Below are positions 8,800 through 23,685 of a stretch of 33,946 nucleotides of DNA, one piece after another. Location: positions 1 through 33,946 of the forward strand of contig CAMJXD010000014.1 of assembly GCA_946409635.1 (NCBI GenBank), read 5' to 3'. Origin of the DNA: an uncultured Prevotellaceae bacterium (GTDB lineage Bacteria > Bacteroidota > Bacteroidia > Bacteroidales > Muribaculaceae). The translations under genes and the position numbers were made by a program. The notes below the pieces were generated by a model. That model worked only from the letters and a program-made list of their open reading frames with translations, was not told the origin of the DNA and made no database searches. Each line of letters opens with the position of its first letter. Position 1 is the first letter of the stretch.

Positions 8800-8803
8800 C
8801 ACT

Positions 8804-9580
8804 ATGGAAGAAAAAGCTAAAAAGACAAGGTGGTTTGACAACATTTGGGCGGCGTTGATTTTCTTTACACGTCTGCCTTTTTGGCGCATTTATCAGCCAC
8901 CGCAGGCGAGCTACAAAACGGTCGTCGAGTATTGGCCATTGACGGGCTGGCTCACGGGTGGCGCGATGGCTGCGACGCTCTATTTCGGTAGCATGGTGCT
9001 CCCGTGGGTTGTCACAGTGATTGCCGCGATTGTTGTGCGATTGCTCATCACCGGGGCGCTGCATGAAGACGGTCTGGCCGACTTCATGGACGGCTTTGGT
9101 GGCGGGGGCAACCGCGAGCGCATTCTAGCCATCATGAAGGATTCACACATCGGCACCTATGGTGTGCTGGGATTGATTCTTTACATGTTGTTGCTAGGCG
9201 GTGCGCTCTATAGCATGCCACCCACCACTGCCGCATTAATTGTCTTGGGCGCCGACCCGTACTCCAAGATGGTCACGAGCCAACTGGTCACGATGCTCCC
9301 CTATGCCCGCCGCGAGGAAGAAGCTAAGAATAAAACCATCTATCGCAAGCCCACGCTGGCTGCCGGCTTGAGCCTGACTGTGCAGGGCCTGCTGCCGCTG
9401 GCATTGGTAATCTGGCTAACAGGTATTGACTGGTATGGGATCATTTTCATTCCAGCACTGGTGATGTATTTCCTGTACCTGCTCATCCTGCGCAAGCTTC
9501 ACGGCTATACGGGCGACTGCTGCGGTGCCGTGTGCCTGCTGGTTGAACTAGCTGTATATCTGGTAGCGTGCACGCTATAG
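8804..9580 (+). CDS. cobS: Adenosylcobinamide-GDP ribazoletransferase (cobalamin synthase)
   Basis: A 258-residue integral membrane enzyme that joins adenosylcobinamide-GDP to alpha-ribazole (phosphate), the final assembly step of the nucleotide loop. Diagnostic motifs: AALIFFTRLPF near the N-terminus, GALHEDGLADFMDGFGGG (the acidic Mg-binding motif) near residues 80-97, MKDSHIGTYG, and GYTGDCCGA near the C-terminus. Several hydrophobic helices fit an inner-membrane protein. I chose the ATG at 8804 (MEEKAKKTRW) because an upstream TTG lies inside the promoter box. It is the first gene of a four-gene operon; stop TAG abuts a short direct-repeat tract. Confidence 0.95.
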   Translation: MEEKAKKTRWFDNIWAALIFFTRLPFWRIYQPPQASYKTVVEYWPLTGWLTGGAMAATLYFGSMVLPWVVTVIAAIVVRLLITGALHEDGLADFMDGFGGGGNRERILAIMKDSHIGTYGVLGLILYMLLLGGALYSMPPTTAALIVLGADPYSKMVTSQLVTMLPYARREEEAKNKTIYRKPTLAAGLSLTVQGLLPLALVIWLTGIDWYGIIFIPALVMYFLYLLILRKLHGYTGDCCGAVCLLVELAVYLVACTL

Positions 9581-9608
9581 TGAACAGTGAACAGTTAATA
9601 GTGAATAG
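9581..9608 (+). repeat. Short degenerate direct repeat TGAACAG/TGAATAG between cobS and cobC
   Basis: Starting at the base after the cobS stop, the tract reads TGAACAG TGAACAG TTAATAG TGAATAG, four 7-bp units with progressive changes. It is followed by GACTAGAGG, which recalls the CTAGA units of the other junctions. Confidence 0.7.
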
Positions 9609-9626
9609 ACTAGAGGCTTACAGCTA

Positions 9627-10166
9627 ATGACTAAAATGGAAATTATCTTGATTAGACATACCAGCGTCGATGTCCCTAGGGGGACGTGCTACGGACAGAC
9701 CGATGTGCCCGTGCGCGACACCTTTGAGCAAGAGGCCGAGTTGACACGCCAGTCGCTTGAGCAGTTTTTGCCGTTTGACAAAGTGTTCTCCTCGCCGCTG
9801 TCACGTGCCCGCAAACTCGCCGCCTATTGCGGCTATCCCGATGCCGAAACCGACGACCGCCTGCTGGAGATGAACATGGGTGACTGGGAGATGCAACTGT
9901 ATGACGAAATCCAGGACCCGCACCTGCAAGAGTGGTACGACGACTACATCCACCAGCCCACGACAGGCGGCGAGAGTTTCCTGCAGCAATATCAGCGCGT
10001 GGAGGCATTCCTTGACGAGCTCAAGGACAAGCCCTATCAGCGTGTAGCCATTTTTGCCCATGCCGGGGTACTTATCAGCGCTGGGCTCTATGGCGGGCTG
10101 TATTCCTGGGACAATGCTTGGAGCAATCTGGCCGATTACGGGAACTATATTGTAATTAGAAACTGA
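9627..10166 (+). CDS. cobC: Alpha-ribazole phosphatase of the histidine phosphatase superfamily
   Basis: A 179-residue histidine-phosphatase protein. It has the phosphohistidine motif LIRHT (His11 counting from 9627), the GxTD-type loop YGQTDVPV, SSPLSRARKLA, the acidic LEMNMGDWE segment and a second catalytic histidine in IFAHAGV. The family includes CobC, which removes the phosphate from alpha-ribazole-5'-phosphate or adenosylcobalamin-5'-phosphate. Placement between cobS and cobU supports that role, although phosphoglycerate mutase-like relatives share the fold. The start is uncertain: ATG at 9627 (MTKMEI) or ATG at 9636 (MEIILIRHT), the latter matching the usual beginning of the family. 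Its stop is one base before the cobU ATG. Confidence 0.88.
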   Translation: MTKMEIILIRHTSVDVPRGTCYGQTDVPVRDTFEQEAELTRQSLEQFLPFDKVFSSPLSRARKLAAYCGYPDAETDDRLLEMNMGDWEMQLYDEIQDPHLQEWYDDYIHQPTTGGESFLQQYQRVEAFLDELKDKPYQRVAIFAHAGVLISAGLYGGLYSWDNAWSNLADYGNYIVIRN

Positions 10167-10167
10167 C

Positions 10168-10683
10168 ATGAGAAAAATCATATTAATCACCGGTGGGCAA
10201 CGCTCGGGCAAGAGCCGCTACGCCGAGCAGTTGGCATTGAGCCTTGCTGACAATCCTGTGTATGTGGCGACAGCCCACGTGTGGGACGAGGAGTTCCACG
10301 AGCGTGTGCGCCGCCATCAGGAACGCCGAGGCCCGCAGTGGACCAATATCGAGGAAGAGAAATACCTGAGTCGACATGACCTGACGGGTCGTGTGGCGGT
10401 CATCGATTGCGTGACGCTGTGGCTGACCAACTTTTTCTTTGAGAATCAAGATCATGATACACAACAGGTTCTAGAGATGGCCAAAGCGGAGTTTGACCGC
10501 TTCACTGCACAAGATGCCACCTTTATCTTCGTGACCAACGAAATCGGGAGCGGCGGCGTGAGCGTGGATGCCGTGCAACGCCGTTTCACCGACCTGCAAG
10601 GCTGGATGAACCAGCACATCGCCAGCCGTGCCGACGAAGTCACCCTCATGGTCTCGGGCATCCCGGTAACAGTTAAGAGTTAA
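10168..10683 (+). CDS. cobU: Adenosylcobinamide kinase / adenosylcobinamide-phosphate guanylyltransferase
   Basis: A 171-residue bifunctional enzyme that phosphorylates adenosylcobinamide and then transfers GMP to give adenosylcobinamide-GDP. The P-loop GGQRSGKS is at residues 9-16. VATAHVWDEEFHERVRRHQERR carries His50, the position equivalent to the guanylylated histidine of CobU. DCVTLWLTN and FVTNEIGSGGV are further family motifs. The length is normal. It starts one base after cobC. The last residues (about TVKS) and the TAA come from the GTTAAGA tandem repeat, so the native C-terminus was probably replaced by repeat sequence: the expected family end V(V)SGIPV is present just before it. 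Confidence 0.95.
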   Translation: MRKIILITGGQRSGKSRYAEQLALSLADNPVYVATAHVWDEEFHERVRRHQERRGPQWTNIEEEKYLSRHDLTGRVAVIDCVTLWLTNFFFENQDHDTQQVLEMAKAEFDRFTAQDATFIFVTNEIGSGGVSVDAVQRRFTDLQGWMNQHIASRADEVTLMVSGIPVTVKS

Positions 10684-10694
10684 GAGTTAAGAGT
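10672..10694 (+). repeat. 7-bp tandem repeat GTTAAGA x3 at the cobU 3' end
   Basis: Three perfect GTTAAGA units plus GTT run from 10672 to 10694. The first units encode the last cobU codons and its TAA at 10681-10683. It leads directly into the TCTAGANNN array. Confidence 0.85.
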
Positions 10695-10727
10695 TCTAGA
10701 TGGTCTAGAGCATCTAGAATATCTAGA
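10695..10727 (+). repeat. 9-bp tandem repeat TCTAGANNN before cobT
   Basis: Four perfect TCTAGA hexamers start at 10695, 10704, 10713 and 10722, separated by TGG, GCA and ATA. It is the same array type as at 7568-7609, and both end in TAGAATATCTAGAAACTAAA on the coding strand of the following gene. The cobT ATG lies 24 bases beyond the array. Confidence 0.85.
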
Positions 10728-10751
10728 AACTAAAAACTAAGCACCAAGAAA

Positions 10752-11795
10752 ATGAAACCATTCAACATACAACACACCGACAAGTCGCTGGAACAGAACA
10801 TCCAGCAAAAAATCGACCACCTGAATAAACCCAAAGGCTCGCTAGGCCGCCTCGAGGAACTGGCCTTGCAAATCTGCCTCATTCAGCAGACTTTAACGCC
10901 TTCGTTGAATCATCCTTGCCACCTGCTGTTGGGTGGAGACCACGGCATTGAGCGCGAGGGCGTGAGCGTGTCACCGCGCGAGGTCACCTGGCAACAGATG
11001 ATTAATTTCACCCGTGGCGGTGGCGGCGTGAACATGTTCTGCCGCCAACATGGCTTTGACCTGAGCATCGTTGACGTGGGAGTGGATTATGACCTCAGCG
11101 ACGTGCCCGGCATCATCGACCGCAAGATTGCCCGTGGCACCCGCAATTTCCTGCACGAGCCCGCCATGAGTCAGGAGGAGTTTAACCATGCCATCCAAGT
11201 TGGCTGCGACCTCGTGGATGACTGCATAGCCAAGGGGTGCCAAGTGCTGTGCATCGGTGAGATGGGCATCGCCAACACCTCGCCGTCGAGCATCTGGATG
11301 AGCCTGTTCGGCAATATCCCATTGGATCAGTGCATCGGGGCAGGAGCGGGTCTTGACCACCCCGGTATCCAGCACAAGCGCGAAATCCTCGCCCAAGCAT
11401 TGAAGCATTACCATGAGACGATGGAAAACACAGTCGAGAACGCTATCCGCTATTTCGGGGGCATTGAGATGGTGACGGCCATCGGTGCAATGTTGCGAGG
11501 GGCCGAAAGACACCTCGTCGTGCTGGTTGACGGTTTCATCATGACCGCCTGCGCCATTGCCGCCATCCGCCTCTATCCCGCCGCCCAGGACTACATGATC
11601 TTTACCCATTGTGGTGATGAGAGCGGCCATAAGCGTATGCTCGACATCGTTGGTGCCAAGCCCATCCTCAACCTGGGTCTGCGCCTCGGCGAGGGAACGG
11701 GAGCCCTGTGCGCCTATCCCATTATCGCCTCCTCGGTCCGCATGCTCAACGAGATGAACAACTTCGACACCGCCCACATCACCAAGTATTTTTAG
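10752..11795 (+). CDS. cobT: Nicotinate-nucleotide--dimethylbenzimidazole phosphoribosyltransferase
   Basis: A 347-residue enzyme that activates the lower-ligand base by forming alpha-ribazole-5'-phosphate from nicotinate mononucleotide. Motifs in order: KPKGSLGRLEELA near residue 30, GGDHGI near 61, the glycine-rich TRGGGGVNMFC, GEMGIANTSPSS near 169-180, and the catalytic Glu314 in GLRLGEGTGA. The GNTT motif of enterobacterial CobT is ANTS here. The length matches the family. No gene for 5,6-dimethylbenzimidazole synthesis (BluB) is in the window, so the actual lower ligand is open. It is the last gene of the cobS operon, followed after 25 bases by a REP-like palindrome. Confidence 0.95.
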   Translation: MKPFNIQHTDKSLEQNIQQKIDHLNKPKGSLGRLEELALQICLIQQTLTPSLNHPCHLLLGGDHGIEREGVSVSPREVTWQQMINFTRGGGGVNMFCRQHGFDLSIVDVGVDYDLSDVPGIIDRKIARGTRNFLHEPAMSQEEFNHAIQVGCDLVDDCIAKGCQVLCIGEMGIANTSPSSIWMSLFGNIPLDQCIGAGAGLDHPGIQHKREILAQALKHYHETMENTVENAIRYFGGIEMVTAIGAMLRGAERHLVVLVDGFIMTACAIAAIRLYPAAQDYMIFTHCGDESGHKRMLDIVGAKPILNLGLRLGEGTGALCAYPIIASSVRMLNEMNNFDTAHITKYF

Positions 11796-11849: not shown

Positions 11850-11879
11850 AATTTTAGGTATTGCGTCTCAGTGGGATAA

Positions 11880-11897
11880 GGAGTAATTTTATACTCC
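11880..11897 (+). promoter_or_regulatory. Small hairpin just upstream of the receptor start codon
   Basis: GGAGTA at 11880-11885 pairs perfectly with TACTCC at 11892-11897 around a six-base loop, 12 bases before the ATG at 11910. It could influence translation or be chance. No TAnnTTTG box is evident between cobT and this gene. Confidence 0.3.
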
Positions 11898-11909: not shown

Positions 11910-14639
11910 ATGCAAGTTGTTAGATTTATCATAGTGGCTTTAATGGTCTTGGCCTTGCAAATTGCTGATGCCCAGACCGTCAAGAGTGGTATTGTGCTGG
12001 ATGCCGAGGCCCTTGAACCTATTGTCGGGGCGACGATTGCCGATGCGCAATCAGGGAAAGTGCTGTCAGTCACTCAAGCCGACGGAAGCTTCAACCTACC
12101 TAAAAATAATGAGGCGAGGTTGAGGATTACGTCTATCGGCTATAAGCCGTTAATCACCATGCCGACCAGCGACGGACGCTATCTCTTGCATGCCGAGGTG
12201 AGCCAGCTGGGCGAGGTCGTGGTGACCGCCCAGGAGAACAAGGGGCTGACCACGTCGTCGCGCATCGAGAAGCATGCCATGGAACACTTGCAGCCCTCGA
12301 GTTTTTCAGATATTCTGGAACTCTTACCTGGCGGTCGCAGTGTTGACCCGTCATTGAGCACACCTAATAACATCCACATCCGTGAGATCTCGACGCCGAG
12401 CAGCAACTATGCCACGTCGTCGCTGGGCACCAGTTTTATTATCGACGGAGCCCCCATCTCGACCAATGCCAATATGCAGTACCTGGCCGGTGCATGGGAC
12501 GTCATGGCCTCCAGCCGCGACAACACCAATGCCGGTGTCGACATGCGTGGCATCTCCACCGATGACATCGAGCGTGTGGAAATCGTGCGCGGCGTCCCCT
12601 CGGTGGAATATGGCGACCTGACCAGCGGCCTTGTCAAGATAGAGCGGCGCCGCGGCGGTCATGATCTCAAGTTCCGGCTGAAGGCCGACATGGGCTCCAA
12701 ATTGCTGTATGCTGCCAAGGACCTGGAATGGGAAAACAGGCGCCTGACACTGAATATCAGTGCCGACTACCTGGATGCCAAAGCCGACCCACGCAATAAT
12801 CTGGAGAATTACAAGCGCCTGACCTTCTCGGCCCGTTTGCACAAGCGCTGGGAGCAGGAGCGTTACCAGCTCGCCCTGAGCTCAAACCTTGATTTTTCCA
12901 GGTCTCTGGACAACGACAAGGAAGACGTTGACCAGACCTACAGCGCTGAGGACTCTTATAAATCGAGTTATAACCGTTATGCCCTGCTCACGTCCCTGTC
13001 GTTCAAGACCAAGGGGCACTCATGGCTCAAATCGGCCGACTTGACCCTGTCGGGATCGCTGGAGAAAGACTTGATAGAGCGCACCAAGCTGGTGCAGTTG
13101 TCTCGCATGACCATTGCTCCGCTCTCGATGGTGGAAGGAGAAAACGATGCCTATATTCTGCCATTTAAGTACACCGGACATCACGAGGTGGACGGCAAGC
13201 CCGTCAATGCCTATGCCAAGCTCAACGTCAGGTTGCAGGTCCCCAACAACACCGTGAGCAACACGCTGCTGCTGGGCATGGACTGGAACCTGGATAAAAA
13301 CCTGGGCCGCGGCCAGGTGTTTGACCCCCACACGCCGGTCTATACAGGCATCTCGTCACGGGCGCGTTCGCTCAAGGAGATTCCTGCCAACCATCGCTTG
13401 TCGGCCTACGGCGAGGGAACCATCAAGTGGCCCACGCCTGTGGGAACGATCGAGGCCGTGGCCGGATTGCGCGTCACCTCGATGCTTAACCTGGAGCAGG
13501 CCTACGCCATGTATGGCAAGGCCTACCTTGATCCGCGCGTGAATGTGGGCTATACGCTGCCCCGATTGTCACTGTTCGGCCAGCCCATGTTTATCCGCCT
13601 GTCGGCAGGCATCGGCCAGCACACCAAGATGCCCACCATGGAGCAGTTGTTTCCCGACCTGCTGTACGTCGACTTCATCCAGTTGAACTATTACCACGAC
13701 AATCCCGATTACCGCCGCATCAACCTGATGACCTATATCGTGAATCCTCGCAACACCGCCTTGGAGCCGGCCCGCAACCTCAAGAAGGAGGTGTCGCTGG
13801 ACATCAACATCGGCGGGAACCGAATGACCGTTACGGCCTTCCGCGAGAAGATGACCTCAGGATTCCGCATGCAGTCCTACTATCAGACCTATCAATACAA
13901 GCAATATGACGCGAGCGGCATCGATCCCTCGACCCTGACGTCGCAGCCGCCGCTCGAGACGCTTCCTTATACCGTGCTCAACGAGCTGGCTGGCTATGGC
14001 AACTACACCAACGGCAGCATGACCTTGAAGGAAGGCATTGAATACACGCTCGAGACCAAGCGTTTTCCCGTTATACTCACCCGCTTGACCATCAACGGAG
14101 CATACTTCCGCACCACCTATAACAACTCCATCGTGGACTCCTACCGCCCCAGCCAGGTGATTGCGGGTCGGCAGATTCAATATGTGGGCCTGTATGAGGC
14201 CGATGACGGCTCGGTGCGAGAGGCCTTCAATACCAACTTCACCCTCGATACCGACGTGCCTCGACTCAGGCTGGGCTTCTCGTTTTCGGCCCAATGCATG
14301 TGGTTCACCACCTCACAGCGCACGGAAGTCAGCAACTATCCTGTCCAGTATATCGCCCCTGACGGCAGCATCCATGACTGGAAGGCCAGTGATGCCGAGG
14401 ATATGTACCTGCGATGGCTGGTACGTGACTATACCGCATCACAGTTTGAGAAAAACCAGGTACCGTTTGCTATGAACCTGAACATGAAGGTCACCAAGAA
14501 ACTGTTTGACGACCGACTGCACATCGCCATGTTCTGCAACAAGCTGTGGGACTACACGCCCGACTACGACAGTCGCGGGACAACCATCCGTCGCCATGTT
14601 ACCCCTTACTTTGGACTAGAAATGAACATCAAGTTATGA
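11910..14639 (+). CDS. TonB-dependent outer-membrane receptor with N-terminal carboxypeptidase-regulatory-like domain
   Basis: A 909-residue receptor. It has a signal peptide at residues 1-22 (hydrophobic, ending QIADAQ), then a carboxypeptidase-regulatory-like beta-sandwich at about 24-95 (GATIADAQSGK, DGSFNLP, RITSIGYKP). EVVVTAQ introduces the plug at about 105-245, which holds SFIIDGAPI and the classical IERVEIVRGVPSVEYGDLTSGLV. The rest is a 22-strand barrel ending PYFGLEMNIKL. It carries none of the hallmarks of SusC partners and no SusD follows, so a polysaccharide role is unlikely. Known relatives of this size import siderophores, heme, cobalamin or small proteins. It is the first gene of a five-gene envelope operon that ends with an M16 protease, which suggests a peptide or protein-bound substrate (inference). 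It starts 114 bases after cobT. Confidence 0.9.
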   Translation: MQVVRFIIVALMVLALQIADAQTVKSGIVLDAEALEPIVGATIADAQSGKVLSVTQADGSFNLPKNNEARLRITSIGYKPLITMPTSDGRYLLHAEVSQLGEVVVTAQENKGLTTSSRIEKHAMEHLQPSSFSDILELLPGGRSVDPSLSTPNNIHIREISTPSSNYATSSLGTSFIIDGAPISTNANMQYLAGAWDVMASSRDNTNAGVDMRGISTDDIERVEIVRGVPSVEYGDLTSGLVKIERRRGGHDLKFRLKADMGSKLLYAAKDLEWENRRLTLNISADYLDAKADPRNNLENYKRLTFSARLHKRWEQERYQLALSSNLDFSRSLDNDKEDVDQTYSAEDSYKSSYNRYALLTSLSFKTKGHSWLKSADLTLSGSLEKDLIERTKLVQLSRMTIAPLSMVEGENDAYILPFKYTGHHEVDGKPVNAYAKLNVRLQVPNNTVSNTLLLGMDWNLDKNLGRGQVFDPHTPVYTGISSRARSLKEIPANHRLSAYGEGTIKWPTPVGTIEAVAGLRVTSMLNLEQAYAMYGKAYLDPRVNVGYTLPRLSLFGQPMFIRLSAGIGQHTKMPTMEQLFPDLLYVDFIQLNYYHDNPDYRRINLMTYIVNPRNTALEPARNLKKEVSLDINIGGNRMTVTAFREKMTSGFRMQSYYQTYQYKQYDASGIDPSTLTSQPPLETLPYTVLNELAGYGNYTNGSMTLKEGIEYTLETKRFPVILTRLTINGAYFRTTYNNSIVDSYRPSQVIAGRQIQYVGLYEADDGSVREAFNTNFTLDTDVPRLRLGFSFSAQCMWFTTSQRTEVSNYPVQYIAPDGSIHDWKASDAEDMYLRWLVRDYTASQFEKNQVPFAMNLNMKVTKKLFDDRLHIAMFCNKLWDYTPDYDSRGTTIRRHVTPYFGLEMNIKL

Positions 14640-14652
14640 AGCCAAGAGCTAT

Positions 14653-14697
14653 CGGTTGAATGCGGATGCCGCTGACAACCGACAACTGAAAACTGAA
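14653..14697 (+). repeat. Intergenic repeat family B, copy 2
   Basis: GGTTGAATGCGGATGCCGCT followed by GACAACCGACAACTGAAAAC fills the gap between the receptor and the small lipoprotein and ends at the ATG. It matches 4744-4778 apart from a few substitutions and an extra ACAACCG-type unit. An ATG inside it (14656) is in frame with the lipoprotein but belongs to the repeat. Confidence 0.7.
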
Positions 14698-15084
14698 ATG
14701 AAACAATATTTATCAATCATCATAACCCTCGTTCTGGCTATGGCCCTGACCACCTGTGCTCCCATAGAAGATGATATCTTCACCCAGGCCCGCATCACGG
14801 TGACGGCAGGCGATGACCAGGCGGTTACCCGCGTCCAGGCACAAGTGAAGCTCACCAACGTCAACACCCGCCAGGTGACAACGGTGGCCGATTTTGACGG
14901 CGCGAGCGTGACGGTGGAGGTCCTGCGCGGTGCCTACCAGATTGACATCGAGGGCGTCGCCACCTGCCAGCTTGCCGGCGGTGCCGCCCCCAGGGTGCGG
15001 CAATTCCGTTGCCAGAGTGACTATGTGGAACTGGTCCGTCAGGAGACCAACGAGTTATCGTTGAACATGATATTCCTTGACTAA
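14698..15084 (+). CDS. Small lipoprotein related to the N-terminal domain of the downstream DUF4876-like lipoprotein
   Basis: A 128-residue protein with a lipoprotein signal: MKQYLSIIITLVLAMALTTC, with the lipobox ending at Cys20. I start it at 14698 because an earlier in-frame ATG lies inside a dispersed repeat and would precede the signal peptide. The body looks like one beta-sandwich domain: VQAQVKLTNVNTRQVTTV, then VEVLRGAYQIDIEG. The segment LTNVNTRQVTTV closely matches LTNVETQQVTTI in the lipoprotein encoded at 16615-17853, so the two share a domain. It is probably anchored at the outer membrane next to the receptor, as a surface or periplasmic accessory. No enzymatic motif is seen. Its stop is one base before the next ATG. 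Confidence 0.8.
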   Translation: MKQYLSIIITLVLAMALTTCAPIEDDIFTQARITVTAGDDQAVTRVQAQVKLTNVNTRQVTTVADFDGASVTVEVLRGAYQIDIEGVATCQLAGGAAPRVRQFRCQSDYVELVRQETNELSLNMIFLD

Positions 15085-15085
15085 C

Positions 15086-16576
15086 ATGAAGCGATTACCA
15101 CTACTCATATTCATCATCTTCATGACCATGAAGGCTATAGCTGCAGCCGATGCCGATTCGGCCCTGGTTGAACACACGACGCTGGCCCGGGTGGTCGGCG
15201 GCCAGGCGCTGCGCAATCCGGCAGTTCACGGCGATGCCTACCAGCGGGCCTTTTCGCAGTTGGCCCTGGGCATCGACCTGCAGCGGCAGTCGGTAGCCTT
15301 CACACCCCAGAAGGGCAGCGGCTACACGTTGCCCTACCTCAAGGTGGACACCTACCATCGCCTGAACAATCGCTCCACGGTGTGGGGCGGTGCCTCCTAC
15401 ACGACAGGCAAGCAACACCGTGTGAGGTGGAACTCTACCAGCGACTATGAACTGTTGCAGCCCTACGTCCTTGCCGACACGCTGGGCGGAGACACCCGAC
15501 GTGAGCGATATGCCATATCGGGCGGATATGCCACAGCCATCAAGCGCTGGACGCTGGGCGCCGAGATGCTGGTCAGGGCCGAGCAGGAGTATCGCGGCCG
15601 CGACCCGCGCATGCGTGGCATCGTCACCGACTTGACGCTGCGCCTGGGCGGTGTTTATCGGCTGGGCCGTTATTGCCTGGATGCCGGCATTGAAGCGGAC
15701 ATCTACAAGCAGACCAACAGCGTCGCCTTCTACCGCGAGGAGGGTGTAATACCCGAGTATCAGATGACTGGCCTGGGTACAGAGTACAATCGATTCTCGG
15801 GTGACAAGCGCAGCCTCTATTATGACGGTGGCGGAGTGGCTGTGCTGCTTCATGCCGCCCCGGCCATGGGCAGTGGCCTGTGGGCCGACGTCACCCTTGA
15901 GCAGCACCGTTATCACCGCAAACTCGCCGAATACAACTCCATGCCCCTCACCGACCTCTATAACGAGCACGTGGAAGCCAACTTAGGGTGGAAACGCGAC
16001 AGCCGATTGGCCGCCTGGGCCCATGTGGACTACACGCGCCGCACGGGCAATGAACACGTCGGTGGCATGTCCAATGCACGTTATTTTCCCGTCATCGCCT
16101 GCCTGACGATGTACAAGAGCCACGCGGTGGACGCCTGCGTGAGTGCACTCTATGGCAAGAAAGGCTGGAATGTGGTCATGGCTGCCGGCTACATTTCTCA
16201 AAACGAGCAGTATGTGTATCCTCATCGGCAGATGGACCGTGGCCATGCCTACGGCAGGCTGCAGGGACAATGCTTTGTGCACGCGACCTCCAGGCTGTTG
16301 CTGACCATCAATGCCCATGCTGCCTATTATGGCAACGTGGACGACAAGCTGCAGATGCCCTTTGCCAACATGGGCGAAGCATTCACCGGCTTGATCAGGC
16401 ACCAGCACAAGTTTGCCACAGCCAGTTATACCGACCTGGGTACCAAAGCACGAGCTGACTATGCTTGGAAAAAGGCTAAATATGGATTTTTTATTGAGGT
16501 GGGCGGCGGCTTGACTCTGTGCTCGGCCAGCGAACACCAGACGCAGTTTTTAAGCTCAATAGGTATTACATTTTAG
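15086..16576 (+). CDS. Outer-membrane beta-barrel protein, DUF6850-like
   Basis: A 496-residue protein with a signal peptide (MKRLPLLIFIIFMTMKAIAAADA). Alternating hydrophobic and polar strands rich in Tyr, Gly and Arg follow, and the chain ends LSSIGITF with C-terminal Phe, the usual barrel-assembly signal. The N-terminal segment EHTTLARVVGGQALRNPAVHGDAYQRAFSQL resembles the Bacteroidetes family I know as DUF6850; that name is from memory. The function of the family is unknown. A TTG at 15077 is in frame, but the ATG at 15086, one base after the preceding stop, is the better start. The tight spacing implies translational coupling with the small lipoprotein. It may be a second outer-membrane pore or a structural partner for the receptor. 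Confidence 0.8.
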   Translation: MKRLPLLIFIIFMTMKAIAAADADSALVEHTTLARVVGGQALRNPAVHGDAYQRAFSQLALGIDLQRQSVAFTPQKGSGYTLPYLKVDTYHRLNNRSTVWGGASYTTGKQHRVRWNSTSDYELLQPYVLADTLGGDTRRERYAISGGYATAIKRWTLGAEMLVRAEQEYRGRDPRMRGIVTDLTLRLGGVYRLGRYCLDAGIEADIYKQTNSVAFYREEGVIPEYQMTGLGTEYNRFSGDKRSLYYDGGGVAVLLHAAPAMGSGLWADVTLEQHRYHRKLAEYNSMPLTDLYNEHVEANLGWKRDSRLAAWAHVDYTRRTGNEHVGGMSNARYFPVIACLTMYKSHAVDACVSALYGKKGWNVVMAAGYISQNEQYVYPHRQMDRGHAYGRLQGQCFVHATSRLLLTINAHAAYYGNVDDKLQMPFANMGEAFTGLIRHQHKFATASYTDLGTKARADYAWKKAKYGFFIEVGGGLTLCSASEHQTQFLSSIGITF

Positions 16577-16614
16577 AATTACATAAATTATCAATTCACA
16601 CCAAAAAAAGAACA

Positions 16615-17853
16615 ATGAAAAAGTTAATGTTAAACAGCATCGTCATGATGCTCGCCATGGCCCTGTGCCTGACTTCCTGTAACAGTGATGACCCCATTCC
16701 TGTAGTCCCCACAACCGTTGTCTCGCTTGAGGTTCCTGCCAACCTCGAGGATGTCGTCCTGTCGGGCGCTAAGGCTACCCTGACCAACGTCGAGACTCAG
16801 CAGGTTACTACTATAGAAGCCTCGCAGTTTGTCAAGGACGAGAACGGTTACAAGATGATGTGCAACAACATCGAGGCCGGCACCTACAACGTCATCGTGA
16901 GCGGACATCTTGACTTCACCCTCAAGGGAGTAGCCGGACAGAAGGACTTTGAGGTATCGTCCGATAACGTGGTAATCTCGCCCACTTCCCATGACCTGAA
17001 GATGACCATTTCCACCTTCACGGCCCAGGGTGGTTTTGTCATCAGCGAGATTTTCTATACCGGCACGAGCACGCCCGAGGGCAAGTCCTACAGCGGTGAC
17101 CAGTACATCATCATCACCAACAACTCTGACGTTACCCTGTATGCCGACAGCATTGCAGTGCTGGAGTCGGCCTTCCTGACGACCACCAAGCAGGACTACG
17201 ATCCTGATATCATGTCGACCCACTTCTCGGTGCAGGCTTGCTACATGATTCCCGGCAACGGCAAGAGCGTTCCCGTTGAGCCCGGCCAGAGCCTGAAGCT
17301 GGCCATCAACGCCATCAACCACACGACCGAGCAGCCCAACTCAATCGACTTGAGCGATGCCGACTTTGAGTTCTATGACGAGACCTCTAACCCCAATTTC
17401 ACCGATCCCGACGGTGCCGCACCCAACCTGGACAAGTGGTATTGCTACACGGCCACGATCTATCAGTTCCACAGCCGTGGCTTCAACTCGATGGCCATCG
17501 CCAAGATGCAGACCAGCAAGGAAGACTGGCTGGAGAACTACGTGTATGACGCTACCTACCTGTTTGTGTTTGGCGATTTCTCGAAGGAGATGACCAAATC
17601 CGGCATCTACAAGGTGCCCAACGAGTGGATTCTCGACGGCGTGAACCTGAGTGTTGAGTCGGTGCGCGAGTGGAACGTGCTCGATGCGTCGATCGATGCA
17701 GGATGGACTTATTGTGGCAAGGTGGATCGCGACGAAACCCGCTTCAACAAGTCGGTTATCCGCAAGCAGGATGCCAGCGGCAAGTATGTCGACACCAACA
17801 ACTCAACCAACGACTTTATCCCCGAGGCCGCCGCTTCGTTGCTCAAGCATTAA
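16615..17853 (+). CDS. DUF4876-like lipoprotein
   Basis: A 412-residue lipoprotein: MKKLMLNSIVMMLAMALCLTSC places the lipidated cysteine at residue 22. Residues about 35-125 form a beta-sandwich whose TLTNVETQQVTTI segment matches the small lipoprotein at 14698-15084. Residues about 140-412 begin GGFVISEIFYTG and contain YIIITNNSDVTLYADSIAV, a lamin-tail-like beginning. They continue with YMIPGNGKSVPVEPGQSL, aromatic stretches and a C-terminal IPEAAASLLKH. I recognise this as the Bacteroidetes DUF4876 family, usually found beside TonB receptors; its function is not known. I start it at 16615, where the signal peptide begins, not at an upstream in-frame codon inside the barrel gene. It is likely surface- or periplasm-facing and may bind the receptor's substrate (inference). 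Confidence 0.82.
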   Translation: MKKLMLNSIVMMLAMALCLTSCNSDDPIPVVPTTVVSLEVPANLEDVVLSGAKATLTNVETQQVTTIEASQFVKDENGYKMMCNNIEAGTYNVIVSGHLDFTLKGVAGQKDFEVSSDNVVISPTSHDLKMTISTFTAQGGFVISEIFYTGTSTPEGKSYSGDQYIIITNNSDVTLYADSIAVLESAFLTTTKQDYDPDIMSTHFSVQACYMIPGNGKSVPVEPGQSLKLAINAINHTTEQPNSIDLSDADFEFYDETSNPNFTDPDGAAPNLDKWYCYTATIYQFHSRGFNSMAIAKMQTSKEDWLENYVYDATYLFVFGDFSKEMTKSGIYKVPNEWILDGVNLSVESVREWNVLDASIDAGWTYCGKVDRDETRFNKSVIRKQDASGKYVDTNNSTNDFIPEAAASLLKH

Positions 17854-17860
17854 AGCCCCG

Positions 17861-20668
17861 ATGAAAAAAGTAATTATTACTCTTCTTGCACTGGTGCTGC
17901 TGCCCTTGTGGGCGGCAGCCCAGTTGCCTCAAGACCCGTCGGTGCGTAAGGGCACCCTCAAGAACGGGATGACCTACTACATCCGTCACAATGCCAAGGA
18001 GGCAGGCCTTGCCGACTTCTACTTCGCCCAGCGAGTGGGCTCGATCCTTGAGGAACCCCGCCAGCGAGGCCTGGCGCATTTCCTGGAGCACATGGCCTTC
18101 AACGGAACCAAGAATTTCCCCGGCAAGAACGGCAAGCCCGGCATCGTGTCGTGGTGTGAAAGCATCGGCGTGAAGTTTGGCGCCAACCTCAATGCCTACA
18201 CGTCGGTCGACCAGACCGTCTACCACATCGGTTCGGCCCCGCTGGTGCGTGAGGGCATTATCGACTCGTGCCTGCTCGTACTGCATGACTGGAGCCACTA
18301 CCTGCTGCTCGAGGACGAGGAAATTGACAAGGAGCGTGGCGTGATTCACGAGGAGTGGCGCACCCGTCGAGCCGGCATGGCCGTGCAGCGCATGCAGGAA
18401 CAGGTGTTGCCACGCATCTATGCAGGAACAAAATATGAGGACTGCATGCCCATCGGCTCGATGGACATCGTCGACAACTTCCCCTATCAGGACCTGCGCG
18501 ACTATTACCAGAAGTGGTACCGTCCCGACCTGCAGGCCATCGTTGTCGTGGGCGACATCGATGTCGACAAGATGGAGAAAAAGATCAAGAAGGTTTTCTC
18601 GTCGATTCCTATGCCCAAACGTCCCGCCGAGCGCATCTATTATCCCGTGAGCGACAACGACAAGATGATCGTCGCCATCGAGAAGGATGCCGAGCAGCCC
18701 ATCGTGTTGTGCCACCTCTATCAGAAGCGCGACGCAACCCCCGACGGCGAGAAGAATACCGAGGCTTACCTGCGCAGCAGCTACATTGATGACCTCATTG
18801 GAGCCATGCTGGGCGACCGCTTTGCCGAGCTGCGTCAGCAGCCCGGGTCTCCCGTGCAGAGCGCATCGGGCCGTGCAAGCTCGTTCTTCATCAGCCGCAC
18901 CAAGGAGTCCTTTGCCATGAGCATCAGCTGCAAGCAGGATAATATCCTGGGCGGTATCATTGCCGCGGTGGGCATTGCCGAGCAGGCTCGCCAGCACGGC
19001 TTCACCCAGAGCGAGCTGAACCGTGCCAAGAGCCTCTACCTCAATGCGGCCCAGCGGCGCTATAACATGCGCAACGACTATCGCAATTCCCACTACGTGA
19101 ACAGTTGCGTGACCAACTTCTTGACCGGAGAGCCGCTGCTTTCGGCCGAATATGAGTTGGAGAACACCCGCCGCCTCGACCGCGAGGTGACGATTGACGA
19201 GGTTAACGCCGCCGTGCGAGAACTCATCACCGATCAGAACCAGGTCGTTGTCATGTATGCCCCCGACAAGGAGGAAGTGCGTCTTCCCGATGCGGGCCAG
19301 ATCGAACAGGTCATTCTGGCGGCCCAGCGCCTGTCCTATGCACCCTATACCGACCAAGTGCTTCCCGACCGTTTGCTCAGCCAACTGCCCCAAGCGGGAA
19401 GCATCGTCGCCGAGAAGCCCTACAAGCACGGCTTCACCGAGTACACCCTGTCCAACGGCATGAAGGTGTACGCCCTGAAGACCGACTACAATGCCGATGC
19501 CGTCTCGCTCGAGATGCAGGCTCAGGGTGGTACCTCGCTTTATGGCGATGAAGATATCCCTAACTTCAGTCTCATCTCAAGCGCTGTGACCGAGGCTGGT
19601 GTGGGCGACTATGACGCCATCTCGCTGCGCAAAATGCTCACCGGCAAGTCGGTGAGCGTGAGCCCGTCGGTGGGTAGCAGGGGTCAGAGCATCAACGGCG
19701 GCTCGTCGGTCAAGGACATAACCACTATGTTTGAACTGGCTTACCTGTACTTCACCTCGCCCCGTCGCGACACGACGGCCTTCAACGGATTCATCGAGCG
19801 CAACCGCTCGTTCCTGACCAACCGCAACGCTTCGCCACGGGTGGACTATAACGACTCGATCAGGGCTATCCTGTATGGTCATCACCCCCGCATGGCCCCA
19901 GTTGTGCAGTCTACGCTCGACAAGGTGAGCTATGACCGAATCCTTGAGATTTACAAGGAACGCTTTAGTGATGCCGCCAATTTCAAGACAGTCATTATTG
20001 GCAACTATGACGAGCAGCAGTTGCGTCAATGCCTGTGCCAATATTTGGCAACCTTGCCCAGTACGGGCCGTCAAGAACACACCAACTACAGCAACATCCC
20101 GTCGATTGTGGGCGGACAATCGGTCCACAAGTTCAGCAAGAAGATGGCAACCCCGCTAGCCAACGTGAGCATCTATTATAGCGCCGACGTCCCGTTCACG
20201 GCCCAGAGTGACCTGGAACTGGATTTCTTGAAGCGTTGCCTGTCGATAGCCTACACCGACTCGGTGCGCGAGGAGAAGGGCGGCACCTACGGCGTGAGCG
20301 TGGCTTTTGACTTGGTCCAGGACGACCAGCCCAATGCCACCTTCAAGATTTCGTACAATGCCGGCCCCGACCGCTACGAGGAGATCAACCCCATCATCTA
20401 CCAGCAGTTGCAACATATTGCAGCCAACGGCCCCGAGGCAACGAGCATGGACAAGATTAAGCAATATCTCATCAAGCAGTATGCCCAGTTGGCCATCACC
20501 AACGACTACTGGAACTACATCATCTGGCATGAGCTTGACGATCATGTCGATTTTGACCATGACTATTGCAAGATGGTGGCCAACATGAAGGCCAGTGACG
20601 TGCAGCGCATGGCCCAGCGCCTGCTTGACGCACAGCGGTGCATCGAGGTCACCATGTTGTCCGAGTAA
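17861..20668 (+). CDS. Periplasmic M16 zinc metallopeptidase (PqqL/FusC-like)
   Basis: A 935-residue peptidase with a signal peptide (MKKVIITLLALVLLPLWAAAQ). The inverted zinc motif HFLEH is at residues 73-77 in RGLAHFLEHMAFNGT. ERGVIHEE at 158-165 follows, holding the conserved glutamate pair that completes the zinc site. NAYTSVDQTVYHI and YYQKWYRPDLQAIVVVGDID are further M16 signatures. The second half (from about residue 525, FTEYTLSNGMKVYALKT) repeats the fold without the zinc motif, as in two-domain M16 enzymes, and contains EEKGGTYGVSV. Family members cleave peptides or small unfolded proteins inside a closed chamber; FusC and PqqL work with TonB receptors on imported ferredoxin-type or iron-related substrates. 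It starts seven bases after the DUF4876-like gene and is the last gene before a terminator. Confidence 0.92.
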   Translation: MKKVIITLLALVLLPLWAAAQLPQDPSVRKGTLKNGMTYYIRHNAKEAGLADFYFAQRVGSILEEPRQRGLAHFLEHMAFNGTKNFPGKNGKPGIVSWCESIGVKFGANLNAYTSVDQTVYHIGSAPLVREGIIDSCLLVLHDWSHYLLLEDEEIDKERGVIHEEWRTRRAGMAVQRMQEQVLPRIYAGTKYEDCMPIGSMDIVDNFPYQDLRDYYQKWYRPDLQAIVVVGDIDVDKMEKKIKKVFSSIPMPKRPAERIYYPVSDNDKMIVAIEKDAEQPIVLCHLYQKRDATPDGEKNTEAYLRSSYIDDLIGAMLGDRFAELRQQPGSPVQSASGRASSFFISRTKESFAMSISCKQDNILGGIIAAVGIAEQARQHGFTQSELNRAKSLYLNAAQRRYNMRNDYRNSHYVNSCVTNFLTGEPLLSAEYELENTRRLDREVTIDEVNAAVRELITDQNQVVVMYAPDKEEVRLPDAGQIEQVILAAQRLSYAPYTDQVLPDRLLSQLPQAGSIVAEKPYKHGFTEYTLSNGMKVYALKTDYNADAVSLEMQAQGGTSLYGDEDIPNFSLISSAVTEAGVGDYDAISLRKMLTGKSVSVSPSVGSRGQSINGGSSVKDITTMFELAYLYFTSPRRDTTAFNGFIERNRSFLTNRNASPRVDYNDSIRAILYGHHPRMAPVVQSTLDKVSYDRILEIYKERFSDAANFKTVIIGNYDEQQLRQCLCQYLATLPSTGRQEHTNYSNIPSIVGGQSVHKFSKKMATPLANVSIYYSADVPFTAQSDLELDFLKRCLSIAYTDSVREEKGGTYGVSVAFDLVQDDQPNATFKISYNAGPDRYEEINPIIYQQLQHIAANGPEATSMDKIKQYLIKQYAQLAITNDYWNYIIWHELDDHVDFDHDYCKMVANMKASDVQRMAQRLLDAQRCIEVTMLSE

Positions 20669-20696
20669 CCCCATCAAGTGGTTCAGCAATCTAGTG

Positions 20697-20724
20697 TGCC
20701 CCCATTATTTATGGGGGCATTTTT
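20697..20724 (+). terminator. Strong rho-independent terminator after the M16 protease gene
   Basis: TGCCCCCAT (20697-20705) pairs perfectly with ATGGGGGCA (20711-20719) around a five-base loop and is followed by TTTTT. It marks the end of the receptor-protease operon. Confidence 0.92.
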
Positions 20725-20802: not shown

Positions 20803-21762
20803 ATGAAAGAACAAAAGATATATGAGCCCGATGACAAGATGTTTTCACTTATCGGTGATAACTATAATCTGTTACAGGCATTGGGCAGCTTTGGCATCAA
20901 TCTCGGGTTTGGCGACAAAACTGTTAGGGAGACGTGTGAGCACAATGGGGTGGACACACACACGTTCCTGACAGTGGTCAACTTCACCATCAATGGCATT
21001 GAGGCCAACGACGATGATGAGCATATTTCGGTATTGACTCTGCTGCATTATCTGCAAGCCAGCCATGCCTATTTTCTCGACTTCCAGTTGCCGTACATTC
21101 GTCGCGAACTGGAGGAGTCGTTGAGCGAGAACAACTCGCTGGCGCAACTCATCATGAAATTCTATGATGAGTATGCCTACGAGATACGTTGCCACATGAA
21201 CTATGAGCAAAAAACGCTCTTCCCCTATGTCGAGAAACTTCTTGATGGACAGCCTGCCAGCGACTATAATGTGGAGACCTTCTCCAAGCATCATGGAGCC
21301 GCCGACCGCCAGTTGCGGGAATTGAAAATCCTCATCATCAAGTATCTGCCCCAAGATGGGCTACACAACAACCAGTTGACTGCCGCCCTGCACGACATCT
21401 ATGAGAACGAGCAGTGGCTGTCGCAGCACGCCATGATCGAGGATCATATCTTTGTGCCTGCCATTCGTCGCCTGGAGCATCTTGTCAAGCATGGCGACGT
21501 GACCCGTAACATCTCCAACATGGTGTTTAAGGGCGGCGGCAAGAACTCCTCGACACTCTCCAGCCGTGAGCGCGACATCATCATTGCGCTGGTCCAGGGC
21601 ATGTCGAGCAAGGAGATAGCGGCCCACTTGGACATCTCGATCAACACGGTCATCACCCACCGGCGAAACATCGCCCAGAAGCTCCAAATACACAGTCAAG
21701 CCGGATTGACCATCTATGCGATAGTCAATAACCTGATTGACATCAATGGCGTTAAAATATAG
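20803..21762 (+). CDS. Hemerythrin-domain / LuxR-type helix-turn-helix fusion regulator
   Basis: A 319-residue protein with two parts. Residues about 1-70 resemble the ScdA/DUF542-type N-terminus of di-iron repair proteins. Residues about 75-230 form a hemerythrin-like four-helix bundle with plausible iron ligands: His82 and His88, His131 and Glu135 in HMNYEQKTLFP, His163/His164 in KHHGAADRQL, and His209, Glu213 and His215 in QHAMIEDHIFVPA. Residues about 253-312 are a LuxR/GerE helix-turn-helix (LSSRERDIIIALVQGMSSKEIAAHLDISINTVITHRRNI). The architecture suggests a transcription factor sensing oxygen, nitric oxide or iron status through a di-iron site; related RIC/YtfE proteins act in nitrosative-stress repair. 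No transmembrane segment is seen. It has its own promoter. Target genes are unknown; the adjacent receptor-protease operon is an obvious candidate. Confidence 0.85.
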   Translation: MKEQKIYEPDDKMFSLIGDNYNLLQALGSFGINLGFGDKTVRETCEHNGVDTHTFLTVVNFTINGIEANDDDEHISVLTLLHYLQASHAYFLDFQLPYIRRELEESLSENNSLAQLIMKFYDEYAYEIRCHMNYEQKTLFPYVEKLLDGQPASDYNVETFSKHHGAADRQLRELKILIIKYLPQDGLHNNQLTAALHDIYENEQWLSQHAMIEDHIFVPAIRRLEHLVKHGDVTRNISNMVFKGGGKNSSTLSSRERDIIIALVQGMSSKEIAAHLDISINTVITHRRNIAQKLQIHSQAGLTIYAIVNNLIDINGVKI

Positions 21763-21769: not shown

Positions 21770-22696
21770 TCAGCACAATGACCTGGCTAGCAGTGTGAGG
21801 ACGAGCATGAACACTTCGGCCCTGCGGTTGATGCTCACGGCGGTGTGCATGTCACGGGTAGTCAATAAGCGGTCGTTCTCGCCTATGTAGGGTTTGTCAA
21901 ACAGTTGCCCAAAGTAGTAGTGGGGACCCCCAAAGCGGCAGTTAAGCGCACCGGCCAGCGCGGCCTCGGGGTAGCCGCTGTTGGGACTGGCATGGCGCCG
22001 ACCGTTTTTCCACACAAATTTAAGCAGTGACAATCGGCCAGTAGCAAGAATCATCAGCAGGGCGGTCAATCGGGCAGGAATGTAGTTGGCCACATCATCG
22101 ATGCGGGCAGCCCAGCAGCCGAAGTCCTTGTAGCGTTCGGTGCGGTAGCCAATCATCGAGTCGAGAGTATTGACCATCTTGTAGGCCAGCATGCCTGGAG
22201 TGCCCAGCAATGCGAACCAGAACAGCGGTGCTATTACACCGTCACTCAGGTTCTCGGCAAGGGTCTCGAGGGCAGCGGTGCGCACCTCCTGGGCCGACAG
22301 TTGGGACGTCTCGCGCCCCACGATGCGGGCGACCTGCTGGCGTCCCTCGTCCAGCGAGCGATCCAGCGCCAGGAACACCTCGCGCACCTCGCGAATGAGC
22401 GTCGTTCCAGCCAAGCAATAGAAAATGATAACGGTGTCGAGGATGAGCCACAAGACCATGTTGGGCACCAATCGTTTCATCCCCCACACGGCAAAAAACA
22501 CCAGCAGAATGAAACAGACGGCCATCACGGCCCCCTTGGCCATGCGGTAGCTACCCTTGTTGAGGCGATGCTCGCCCCACGAAATCATCTTGCCGAACCA
22601 CACGATGGGATGCGGCAAGCGTGAGGGGTCACCAAACACAAAATCCAGCAACCAGCCCAACAACAGCGGCAATATGAGTATCAATGCGGATGTCAT
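21770..22696 (-). CDS. cbiB: Adenosylcobinamide-phosphate synthase (CbiB)
   Basis: A 308-residue inner-membrane enzyme that attaches (R)-1-amino-2-propanol phosphate, made by CobD, to adenosylcobyric acid. Motifs: LLDFVFGDPSRLPHPIVWFGK at the N-terminus, ALETLAENLSDGVIAPLFW, AYKMVNTLDSMIGYRTERYKDFG, ARIDDVANYIPARLTA, and NSGYPEAALAGALNCRFGGPHYYFG. Several hydrophobic helices are present. It is last in the five-gene operon; its ATG overlaps the cobD stop as ATGA. Its 3' end lies seven bases from the convergent regulator gene, with no terminator between them. Confidence 0.95.
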   Translation of the reverse strand: MTSALILILPLLLGWLLDFVFGDPSRLPHPIVWFGKMISWGEHRLNKGSYRMAKGAVMAVCFILLVFFAVWGMKRLVPNMVLWLILDTVIIFYCLAGTTLIREVREVFLALDRSLDEGRQQVARIVGRETSQLSAQEVRTAALETLAENLSDGVIAPLFWFALLGTPGMLAYKMVNTLDSMIGYRTERYKDFGCWAARIDDVANYIPARLTALLMILATGRLSLLKFVWKNGRRHASPNSGYPEAALAGALNCRFGGPHYYFGQLFDKPYIGENDRLLTTRDMHTAVSINRRAEVFMLVLTLLARSLC

Positions 22697-23685
22697 TCGT
22701 TCAATTCGCGTAATTCGTAGTTTATTAAAGCGGCGACTAGGGCATCGTTTTCAGCAGGCGACTGGGTGGCAATGCGGAAGTGGTGCGGCGTGAGGCCCGT
22801 GAAATTGGAGGCATCTCGGATGAGGATGCCATGCTCCCGCGCCAAGTATTCCTTCAGTTGGGCAGCTGTTGCTTGCTTGATAGTGCACAAGAAGAAATTG
22901 GTCTGAGTGCCAAAAGCCTCAATGCCATCTATCTCGTTCAACATAGAACGCAGGCGTTGTGTCTCAGCCAAATATGAAGGCAGGTCCTGGATGGCAACAG
23001 CCTCATGCGAGACTAGCCACTTACCCGCCTCGAGTGACAGCGCATTGATGGCCCAGGGGCGGTACTGCTCCCGTAGCTTGCTGATTATCCTTGCCGATGC
23101 CGTGATATAGCCCAGTCGTAATCCTGGCACCGCATAGCGCTTGGTCATCGAGTGCAACAGGATGATATCGTCACGGCTGACCACATCGGCAGGTTGCAGC
23201 AGTGGTGCCATCGTGTAGTCCTCGTAGGACTGGTCCACGATGAGCAGGCGATAGCGCTCGGCAAGCGCCAGCACACCCTCTGTAGCCATGACGTCGCCCG
23301 TGGGGTTATTGGGATTGCACAGCCAGCACAGAGCTCCGTCCTCGCGCTCCTCGTAGCCAAACACGCGGCAAGCGTCCTCATACTCCCTGAACGTGGGTTG
23401 CACAACGTGGCAGGTGCCCTCGCCGCGATAGGTCTGGGCAATCAGGTAGATGGCATCGACTGCACCACTGGTCACCAGCACCTCGTCGCAACTGATGCCG
23501 CACTCACGGGCAATCATCTGCTCGAGCGATGCCGCCGAGGGCTCGGGATAGGAGCGCACGACATCCATGCGCGAGCACAGATAGGTTTCTAAAGCGCTCA
23601 AGTCAGTTCCAGCATAAATGTTGGAACTGAAGTTCATTTTGATGCTGTTGTAGCGAAACAGGTCGTCGCCGTGTCCTTCAATCAT
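22693..23685 (-). CDS. cobD: L-threonine-O-3-phosphate decarboxylase (CobD), PLP-dependent
   Basis: A 330-residue fold-type I PLP enzyme of the histidinol-phosphate aminotransferase family that makes (R)-1-amino-2-propanol phosphate for CbiB. MNFSSNIYAG near residue 17 and VRSYPEPSA match the CobD substrate-binding beginning. TSGAVDAIYL, CNPNNPTG (residues 123-130), DQSYEDY and the PLP lysine Lys182 in HSMTKRYAVPGLRLGY complete the site. I start at 23685 (MIEGHGDDLF), since CobD proteins usually begin with a G-H-G-D motif; a longer frame upstream is antisense-free but lies inside cobQ. The start overlaps the cobQ stop by eight bases. The last dozen residues (about NYELRELNE) are encoded by a family A repeat. 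Confidence 0.93.
   Translation of the reverse strand: MIEGHGDDLFRYNSIKMNFSSNIYAGTDLSALETYLCSRMDVVRSYPEPSAASLEQMIARECGISCDEVLVTSGAVDAIYLIAQTYRGEGTCHVVQPTFREYEDACRVFGYEEREDGALCWLCNPNNPTGDVMATEGVLALAERYRLLIVDQSYEDYTMAPLLQPADVVSRDDIILLHSMTKRYAVPGLRLGYITASARIISKLREQYRPWAINALSLEAGKWLVSHEAVAIQDLPSYLAETQRLRSMLNEIDGIEAFGTQTNFFLCTIKQATAAQLKEYLAREHGILIRDASNFTGLTPHHFRIATQSPAENDALVAALINYELRELNE
22694..22726 (-). repeat. Intergenic repeat family A, copy 3 (left arm only)
   Basis: On the minus strand the sequence AAACTACGAATTACGCGAAT then TGAACGAA matches the left arm of the copies at 1617 and 2886. Here it encodes the end and stop codon of cobD and runs into the ATG of cbiB. The right arm is absent. Confidence 0.65.

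Follow-up and report, generated by a model that had tools for sequence, protein, structure and literature searches.

A five-gene receptor, lipoprotein, barrel and M16 protease operon as a candidate iron-linked import-and-process system of Bacteroidota

The window considered in this study is a stretch of 33,946 nucleotides (nt) from an uncultured Prevotellaceae bacterium (GenBank assembly GCA_946409635.1, contig CAMJXD010000014.1, positions 1 to 33,946). At positions 11910-20668 of its plus strand lie five genes, which encode, in this order, a TonB-dependent receptor, a short lipoprotein, an outer-membrane barrel of the DUF6850 family, a DUF4876 lipoprotein and an M16 metalloprotease. The operon comprises the following features:

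11856-11897, plus strand: promoter-like element, consisting of AGGTATTG (11856-11863) and TAATTTTA (11884-11891)
11910-14639, plus strand: TonB-dependent receptor, 909 amino acids (aa), with an N-terminal carboxypeptidase-regulatory-like domain, an EVVVTA stretch and a Plug domain
14698-15084, plus strand: short lipoprotein (lipoprotein 1), 128 aa, Cys followed by APIEDD, relative of the DUF4876 N-terminal domain
15086-16576, plus strand: DUF6850 outer-membrane barrel, 496 aa (PF21012, E 2.2e-91)
16615-17853, plus strand: DUF4876 lipoprotein, 412 aa (PF16215, E 2e-57), Cys followed by NSDD, fold of 4Q1Z (BT_1938)
17861-20668, plus strand: M16 metalloprotease, 935 aa (PF00675 and PF05193, HFLEH), with a signal peptide and the residues H73-F-L-E76-H77, E158, E165, R803 and Y810
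20696-20720, plus strand: intrinsic terminator-like stem-loop of 10 pairs with a T-run

A reading made from the sequence alone had described five co-directional genes with junctions of 1-58 bases and one terminator, combining a receptor, a second barrel, two lipoproteins and an HFLEH protease. The gaps of 58, 1, 38 and 7 nt and the 10-pair stem-loop bear out this layout, and Pfam matches and gene calls agree with the proposed gene set; the five genes might well be transcribed together. Terminator-like sites are not in excess in the region (9 against 8.1 expected from shuffled sequences), and the one at 20696-20720 has the most pairs. Upstream of the receptor gene, TAATTTTA falls within a perfect inverted repeat, GGAGTA-N6-TACTCC (11880-11897), and we take the promoter pair to be -33/-7 elements. 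Among 26 relatives looked at, 21 have GGTATTG at most 110 nt upstream of the receptor, 23 have GTATTG and, 14-26 nt further, TAnnTTT, and seven possess the perfect inverted repeat.

A profile search detected DUF6850 over the cut-off in 47 of the 295 order genomes, 66 of the 149 family genomes and 29 of the 296 phylum genomes. From the order search, 60 of the 61 places over the cut-off besides the window were fetched, and 60 of 71 further places from the family search; one locus (L098), a partial match without a DUF6850 open reading frame (ORF), was dropped, which leaves 120 rows, namely the window and 119 order and family loci. Outside Bacteroidales, 20 of 33 places over the cut-off were fetched, mostly the stronger ones. 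A receptor alignment was also scanned against named genomes; of the 510 relatives confirmed in this way, the best 80 make up the named loci. Since at least ten named loci seem to be the same contigs as loci of the other sets (e.g. L256/L099, L257/L106, L229/L274, L241/L064), the sets are not additive. ORF calling was mechanical, and the M16 ORF of L269 is masked by a longer opposite ORF.

In 114 of the 120 Bacteroidales rows, a receptor gene and a DUF4876 gene are found on one strand within 6 kb, and each of the 20 loci taken from other orders contains all three families. This indicates that receptor, DUF4876 and DUF6850 constitute an old core. The order seen in the window (receptor, optionally the short lipoprotein, DUF6850, DUF4876, M16) occurs in 30 of the 80 named loci, and eight more show receptor, DUF4876, DUF6850, M16 (designated the commoner order); in ten, DUF6850 was not seen or the locus is truncated. 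Among the owners of the 30 window-order loci are Prevotella falsenii (L214, presumably a close relative of Prevotella intermedia), P. disiens, whose receptor and M16 ORFs are split, P. ihumii, Segatella albensis and an X. ruminicola bin, together with uncultured Prevotellaceae, Muribaculaceae and Bacteroidales bins with a receptor identity of 79-84%. The gap between the DUF4876 and M16 genes has a median of 5 nt in these loci. The recurrence in 30 of 80 named loci confirms that the five-gene linkage is real and the arrangement non-random. As the flanking genes vary between relatives (several contigs are short), the unit is the five genes without their surroundings.

The family labels given in the sequence-only reading hold for DUF6850, DUF4876 and M16, and are less secure for the other two proteins: the receptor exceeds the Pfam cut-off with the Plug domain alone, its carboxypeptidase-regulatory domain falling slightly below, and the short lipoprotein has no Pfam match over the cut-off. 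We take the EVVVTA of the receptor to be a TonB-box-like stretch; the protein shares 38-55% identity with the nine other receptors of our alignment A2. The proposed relationship of the two lipoproteins is supported by an hhalign comparison (probability 96, E 1.6e-9), in which the short one matches the N-terminal region of the DUF4876 alignment. A profile identified the short lipoprotein in 13 of the 30 window-order loci; 12 others have an unlabelled ORF of 91-154 aa at its position, and for the remaining five no same-strand ORF is listed. The longer lipoprotein belongs to DUF4876 by a profile match over the cut-off and by the fold of 4Q1Z, the solved DUF4876 protein BT_1938 of Bacteroides thetaiotaomicron, a member of the BT1933-39 locus.

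Acidic residues are found at positions +3 to +6 after the lipid-bearing cysteine in 43-61% of 148 DUF4876 proteins and at +5 to +7 in 67-72% of 18 short lipoproteins (lipobox by our own pattern in 166 of 214 ORFs, with overlap between the named and the other loci). A surface-export signal for lipoproteins has been described in Bacteroidetes, SDDDD in Bacteroides fragilis (PMC5080379). The acidic stretches of both operon lipoproteins resemble this signal, and both proteins may therefore be displayed on the cell surface. The DUF6850 protein matches PF21012 with 307.8 bits (cut-off 27) over positions 1-464 of 464. Its structural model (mean predicted local distance difference test score 93.2) is a barrel of 18 long strands by our own count, with about 50 residues ahead of the first strand, and resembles many porins with no preferred family. 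The barrel might serve as a co-receptor or docking scaffold or provide the product with a second pore, and its role is the least certain step of the mechanism proposed below.

These properties also bear on the idea that barrel and receptor form a machine for the export or surface display of the lipoproteins or of a secreted partner, as known from Slam with TbpB, with the M16 enzyme removing failed cargo. An 18-strand barrel with so short an N-terminal extension would suit such a role, as would the presence of the DUF4876 gene near DUF6850 in 116 of the 120 rows. However, Bacteroidota possess a general signal for the export of lipoproteins to the surface (PMC5080379), acidic residues of this kind are present in both lipoproteins, and TonB coupling points to import, so we consider an export function highly improbable.

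The M16 protein of the window has all the hallmarks of an intact peptidase, i.e. HxxEH, a third glutamate ligand and the C-terminal Arg/Tyr pair. Among 61 full-length core-linked M16 proteins (copies below about 800 aa were excluded from residue counts), H73, E76, H77, E165 and R803 are kept in all 61 and E158 and Y810 in 60; the roles of E165 and R803/Y810 are assumed by analogy with pitrilysin and insulysin. Since it has a signal peptide without lipobox, and a lipobox-like pattern occurs in just two of the 61 linked copies, it is probably a soluble periplasmic enzyme.

The position downstream of the core is occupied by different modules. In the 120 rows, the first recognised family is an ATP-binding cassette (ABC) transporter/DUF4857/PepSY module in 38, M16 in 29, HEAT-repeat proteins in 22, a secreted protein termed c38 in three and an S46 peptidase in two, and none was recognised in 26 (L156, with an M16 gene 703 nt behind DUF6850, was scored as having no module, and L087, with a non-adjacent M16, as M16). 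M16, HEAT and ABC/DUF4857 do not co-occur in any downstream run of these rows; L289, from another order, combines HEAT with M16. Considering the cores as a whole, M16 is thus a minority module. Among the 39 named loci in window order, M16 follows in 30, c38 in four, ABC in one and nothing recognised in four, and in a separate clade of cores M16 follows in 24 of 24 members. The sequence-only reading had asked whether the protease is usually unlinked in relatives, and by these two counts it is not.

Outside Bacteroidales, six of the 20 loci encode a di-haem cytochrome c peroxidase of the CCP_MauG type immediately behind DUF6850 or separated from it by one small ORF; five were confirmed by Pfam and the sixth by our own profile. 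Such a gene also adjoins the core in three named Flavobacterium loci, of which one seems to share its contig with an other-order locus (L274, L276, L277, L279, L283, L286, L228, L229 and L231 in all). No CCP_MauG gene was found at the core in the window and the 120 Bacteroidales loci.

M16 proteases of this size are common in the family, irrespective of the core. A match at E 1e-60 is present in 144 of 149 family genomes (linked copies included) and any DUF6850 match in 67, so at least 77 genomes have such an M16 without the core. The genome of the window itself has five M16 ORFs. In stretches of 7-20 kb, searched for receptors solely with profiles or with two receptor sequences, no TonB receptor was seen around the other four or around four M16 genes on three further contigs (L163, L170 and a third one of the window's genus with two M16s). 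In phylogenetic trees, the linked M16s stand mostly apart from the sampled unlinked ones, which are the best-scoring copies with loci returned and thus a non-random sample. The linked copies comprise a canonical clade with 24 members (support 100), the window type, and a further group whose members come from other families. A single clade of the 53 linked rows, among them L087, L156 and L251 with an M16 near but not directly behind the core, is not rejected (approximately unbiased test, p 0.46). The core is hence accompanied by a mostly dedicated protease lineage with intact zinc-site residues.

On the DUF6850 tree, the M16 state changes six times with the window included and five times without it, at least four of the changes being forced by the starred branches. 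The M16s of Segatella copri L255 and Prevotella L263 nest within the window-type lineage although their core order differs, which demonstrates module exchange. The core of the window is nearest to that of L101, which has c38 instead of M16, and its M16 is nearest, in the first tree, to that of L156, whose core is placed elsewhere. That the protease is kept with this kind of core while shifting between core lineages is hard to explain without a joint task. One could object that the five proteins have no common task and are held together by shared expression timing only, since core and protease are separable in many lineages. However, the pairing of M16 and core is repeated on separate branches, with near-zero gaps and a largely dedicated M16 lineage, which makes this objection very unlikely to hold.

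Some further observations concern the modules. The c38 protein of about 418 aa replaces M16 in L101 (5529-6785), L103 (10107-11360), L104, L209, L211, L212 and L220; those of L101 and L103 have no Pfam match, and in L101 an FGE-sulfatase-like gene lies behind c38. In L156, a small lipoprotein (8626-9327) is located between DUF6850 and M16 and is, judged by eye, perhaps of the c6 type found with ABC modules.

The Fus system of Pectobacterium (FusA/B/C/D) and YddB/PqqL of E. coli likewise combine a receptor with a single-chain M16 protease of this size class, the combination found here in the 30 window-order and eight commoner-order loci among the 80 named ones. The window M16 matches PqqL with E 3.2e-67 and FusC (6BRS, which we take to be FusC) with E 3.9e-33. 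The systems also resemble each other in their sporadic spread and in having members in which a di-haem cytochrome c peroxidase takes the place of M16. However, the window operon has two lipoproteins and a second barrel, which are not known among the Fus parts, and a Pfam scan gave no match to the TonB-like FusB among its five genes. A profile of ten receptors, searched against the PDB sequences, matched six chains at E 0.001 (9gbc, 5t3r, 6ytc and others) with its N-terminal part only; none of them is FusA or YddB, both of which are presumably present in the PDB. The host phylum differs as well, for PMC6793856 describes Proteobacteria. Because the receptor family differs and FusB is missing, the operon is best viewed as analogous to Fus/PqqL and not as a member of it.

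For the Fus-related clusters of Proteobacteria it has been described that, where FusC is absent, cytochrome c peroxidases adjoin the receptor in multiple cases, and it was suggested that these free the iron cofactor by redox chemistry; iron-dependent expression is reported for PqqL and FusC (PMC6793856). Two receptor groups with no mutual sequence match thus share the same two alternative processors, M16 and peroxidase, and this analogy is the strongest functional argument we can offer. The import-and-cleave function proposed in the sequence-only reading remains the best fit and is strengthened by this alternation.

Annotated relatives of the core respond to iron. In Porphyromonas gingivalis, PG1019-22, annotated as DUF4876 and TonB receptor, is 20.8- to 214.5-fold up without iron, and in B. 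thetaiotaomicron BT3625-33 is 36.7- to 128-fold and BT1933-39, the locus of BT_1938, 3.5- to 7.4-fold up (PMC10434189). The legend of Fig. 1C of that study compares PG1019-21, BT_1938-9 and a P. intermedia locus, and the five genes PIOMA14_I_0804-08 of P. intermedia, a TonB-dependent transport system, are 5.2- to 33.2-fold up without iron (PMC10434189). PG1019-22, BT1933-39 and BT3625-33 share receptor and DUF4876 with the window by annotation, whereas the further products listed there are HEAT-repeat, hypothetical or ABC/PepSY/DUF4857 proteins; M16 and insulinase have no occurrence in PMC10434189. In a haemin experiment, a DUF4876 gene changes with the same sign as HmuY (PMC10470040).

Haem-linked genes also adjoin some cores. 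In L087 (9291-16697), a gene for a ChaN-type haem-binding protein and three ORFs matching M16 lie behind the core. In L052 (4359-5936) and L129 (10856-12780), papain-like and HmuY-like sequence is found downstream of HEAT-repeat genes at the core, either within one gene or across two neighbouring ones; these matches are partly under the Pfam cut-off, that to HmuY in L052 being sub-threshold. It is possible that these genes represent a combination of protease and haem-binding protein. Directly downstream of the window operon lies a regulatory gene:

20803-21762, plus strand: hemerythrin-LuxR regulator (PF01814, PF00196), a neighbour outside the core

It was recognised in 15 of the 80 named loci, directly after M16 in 11, mainly in the closest relatives, and has the same domain make-up as the fused hemerythrin/CdhR-type regulator of P. 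intermedia (PMC10434189, legend of Fig. 3E).

The iron response is also of importance for another possible function. The operon resembles RagAB/SusCD in that an outer-membrane lipoprotein accompanies a TonB-dependent receptor whose N-terminus is a carboxypeptidase-regulatory-like domain. With the SusC/RagA model TIGR04056, the window receptor reaches 64.9 bits, below the cut-off of 368.25. RagAB imports oligopeptides for nitrogen, and M16 chambers favour peptides, so the receptor could feed the cell with oligopeptides that the protease trims. An S46 peptidase (L070, L077) and a met-zincin (L070) adjoin some cores, which would be in line with such a function. However, the operon has no SusD/RagB match in Pfam and carries DUF4876 and DUF6850 instead, peptidases are merely one of several downstream modules, and the annotated relatives of the core are iron-repressed. 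Peptide feeding is therefore, in our opinion, distinctly unlikely.

The position of the operon in the window had suggested a corrinoid, free or bound to protein, as cargo. Genes for cobalamin synthesis and transport indeed lie on both sides (218-11795 and 21770-26922), with the operon between cobT and cbiB. Among the named loci, cobalamin genes were recognised in the fetched flanks of three, all of close relatives (several genes in L189 and L194, two cbiA-like pieces in L196), but not in the other 77, some of whose flanks are short, and CobT occurs only in the window among 121 loci (the window and the 120 order and family loci). The receptor scores 16.4 bits with the BtuB-type B12 receptor model TIGR01779, against a cut-off of 599.7, and an Rfam scan of the whole window gave zero matches over the threshold, so that a cobalamin riboswitch was not recognised. 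The corrinoid proposal is not borne out by these results, and we give it next to no credence.

A more serious competitor is the import of a small iron chelate or of free haem, with the M16 enzyme in a side role in the same envelope, breaking down blocked receptor complexes, a haemophore or a secreted partner protein. The core is paired with an ABC/DUF4857/PepSY module and no protease in 38 of 120 rows, some cores have the haem-linked neighbours mentioned above, and a secreted protein of the DUF6383 type, which might be such a partner, is encoded divergently from the receptor in many M16 loci of the commoner type and inside the operon in L255 and L263. We looked at the DUF6383-type proteins of L255, L263, L256, L257, L242 and L259; several of their C-termini are what we take to be sorting-like, others presumably dockerin-like repeats. 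On the other hand, pairings of M16 and core occur at several points of the core tree, and the exchange of M16 against cytochrome c peroxidase matches clusters thought to import proteins. Altogether, we regard chelate or haem uptake as rather unlikely.

Several results nevertheless weigh against the import and cleavage of a polypeptide by the operon. The core does not need a protease, since 91 of the 120 cores carry something other than M16 or nothing recognised, and it is possible that the cargo is a chelate or free haem and that the protease acts in a different step. The receptor is unrelated to FusA and YddB by sequence search. The window M16 is not closer to FusC/PqqL than other M16s are: an unlinked M16 of the same genome is equally similar (PqqL 7.8e-69, FusC 9.5e-36), and the canonical linked M16 of L102 scores a little higher with FusC (2.2e-40) and a little lower with PqqL (8.2e-64). 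In the free tree, the unlinked M16s of L163 and L170 and the second M16 of L079 sit among the linked ones. Finally, the published iron-responsive loci are related to the core by annotation as receptor and DUF4876, and no expression data were found for a locus shown to have the M16 version; PIOMA14_I_0804-08 may be one, given that P. falsenii, presumably close to P. intermedia, possesses the five-gene unit.

Taking both sides together, we think it slightly more probable than the contrary that the operon is an iron-linked outer-membrane import-and-process system of Bacteroidota. The DUF4876 lipoprotein and its short paralog would sit on the cell surface and help the receptor to capture an iron- or haem-bearing polypeptide. 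The TonB-driven receptor, assisted by the DUF6850 barrel, would move this polypeptide or a piece of it into the periplasm, where the M16 enzyme would cut the imported chain and thereby release the metal or cofactor. In related systems, HEAT-repeat proteins, a DUF4857/PepSY ABC transporter or a di-haem cytochrome c peroxidase take the place of M16 behind the same core. The gain of iron is suggested by the published iron repression of relatives of the core (PMC10434189).

A wider view, which we put forward tentatively and with more doubt than conviction, is that the core is a protein-import platform of Bacteroidota that evolved independently of Fus, takes in whole iron proteins or haem-bearing polypeptides and is equipped with processors that are exchangeable from lineage to lineage. 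M16 would cut the guest, the di-haem peroxidase would free the metal by redox chemistry, and the HEAT and ABC/PepSY modules would extract the cofactor and pass it on.

Nutritional protein import across the outer membrane is established in few systems, and those described in PMC6793856 are from Proteobacteria. If a second system exists in bacteria of the gut, the rumen and the mouth, with different surface parts yet the same alternation of M16 and cytochrome c peroxidase, this would suggest that import and processing is a general solution reached more than once. DUF4876 and DUF6850, both families of unknown function, would gain a testable job, and the proposal predicts how the iron-repressed loci of B. 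thetaiotaomicron and P. gingivalis may work.

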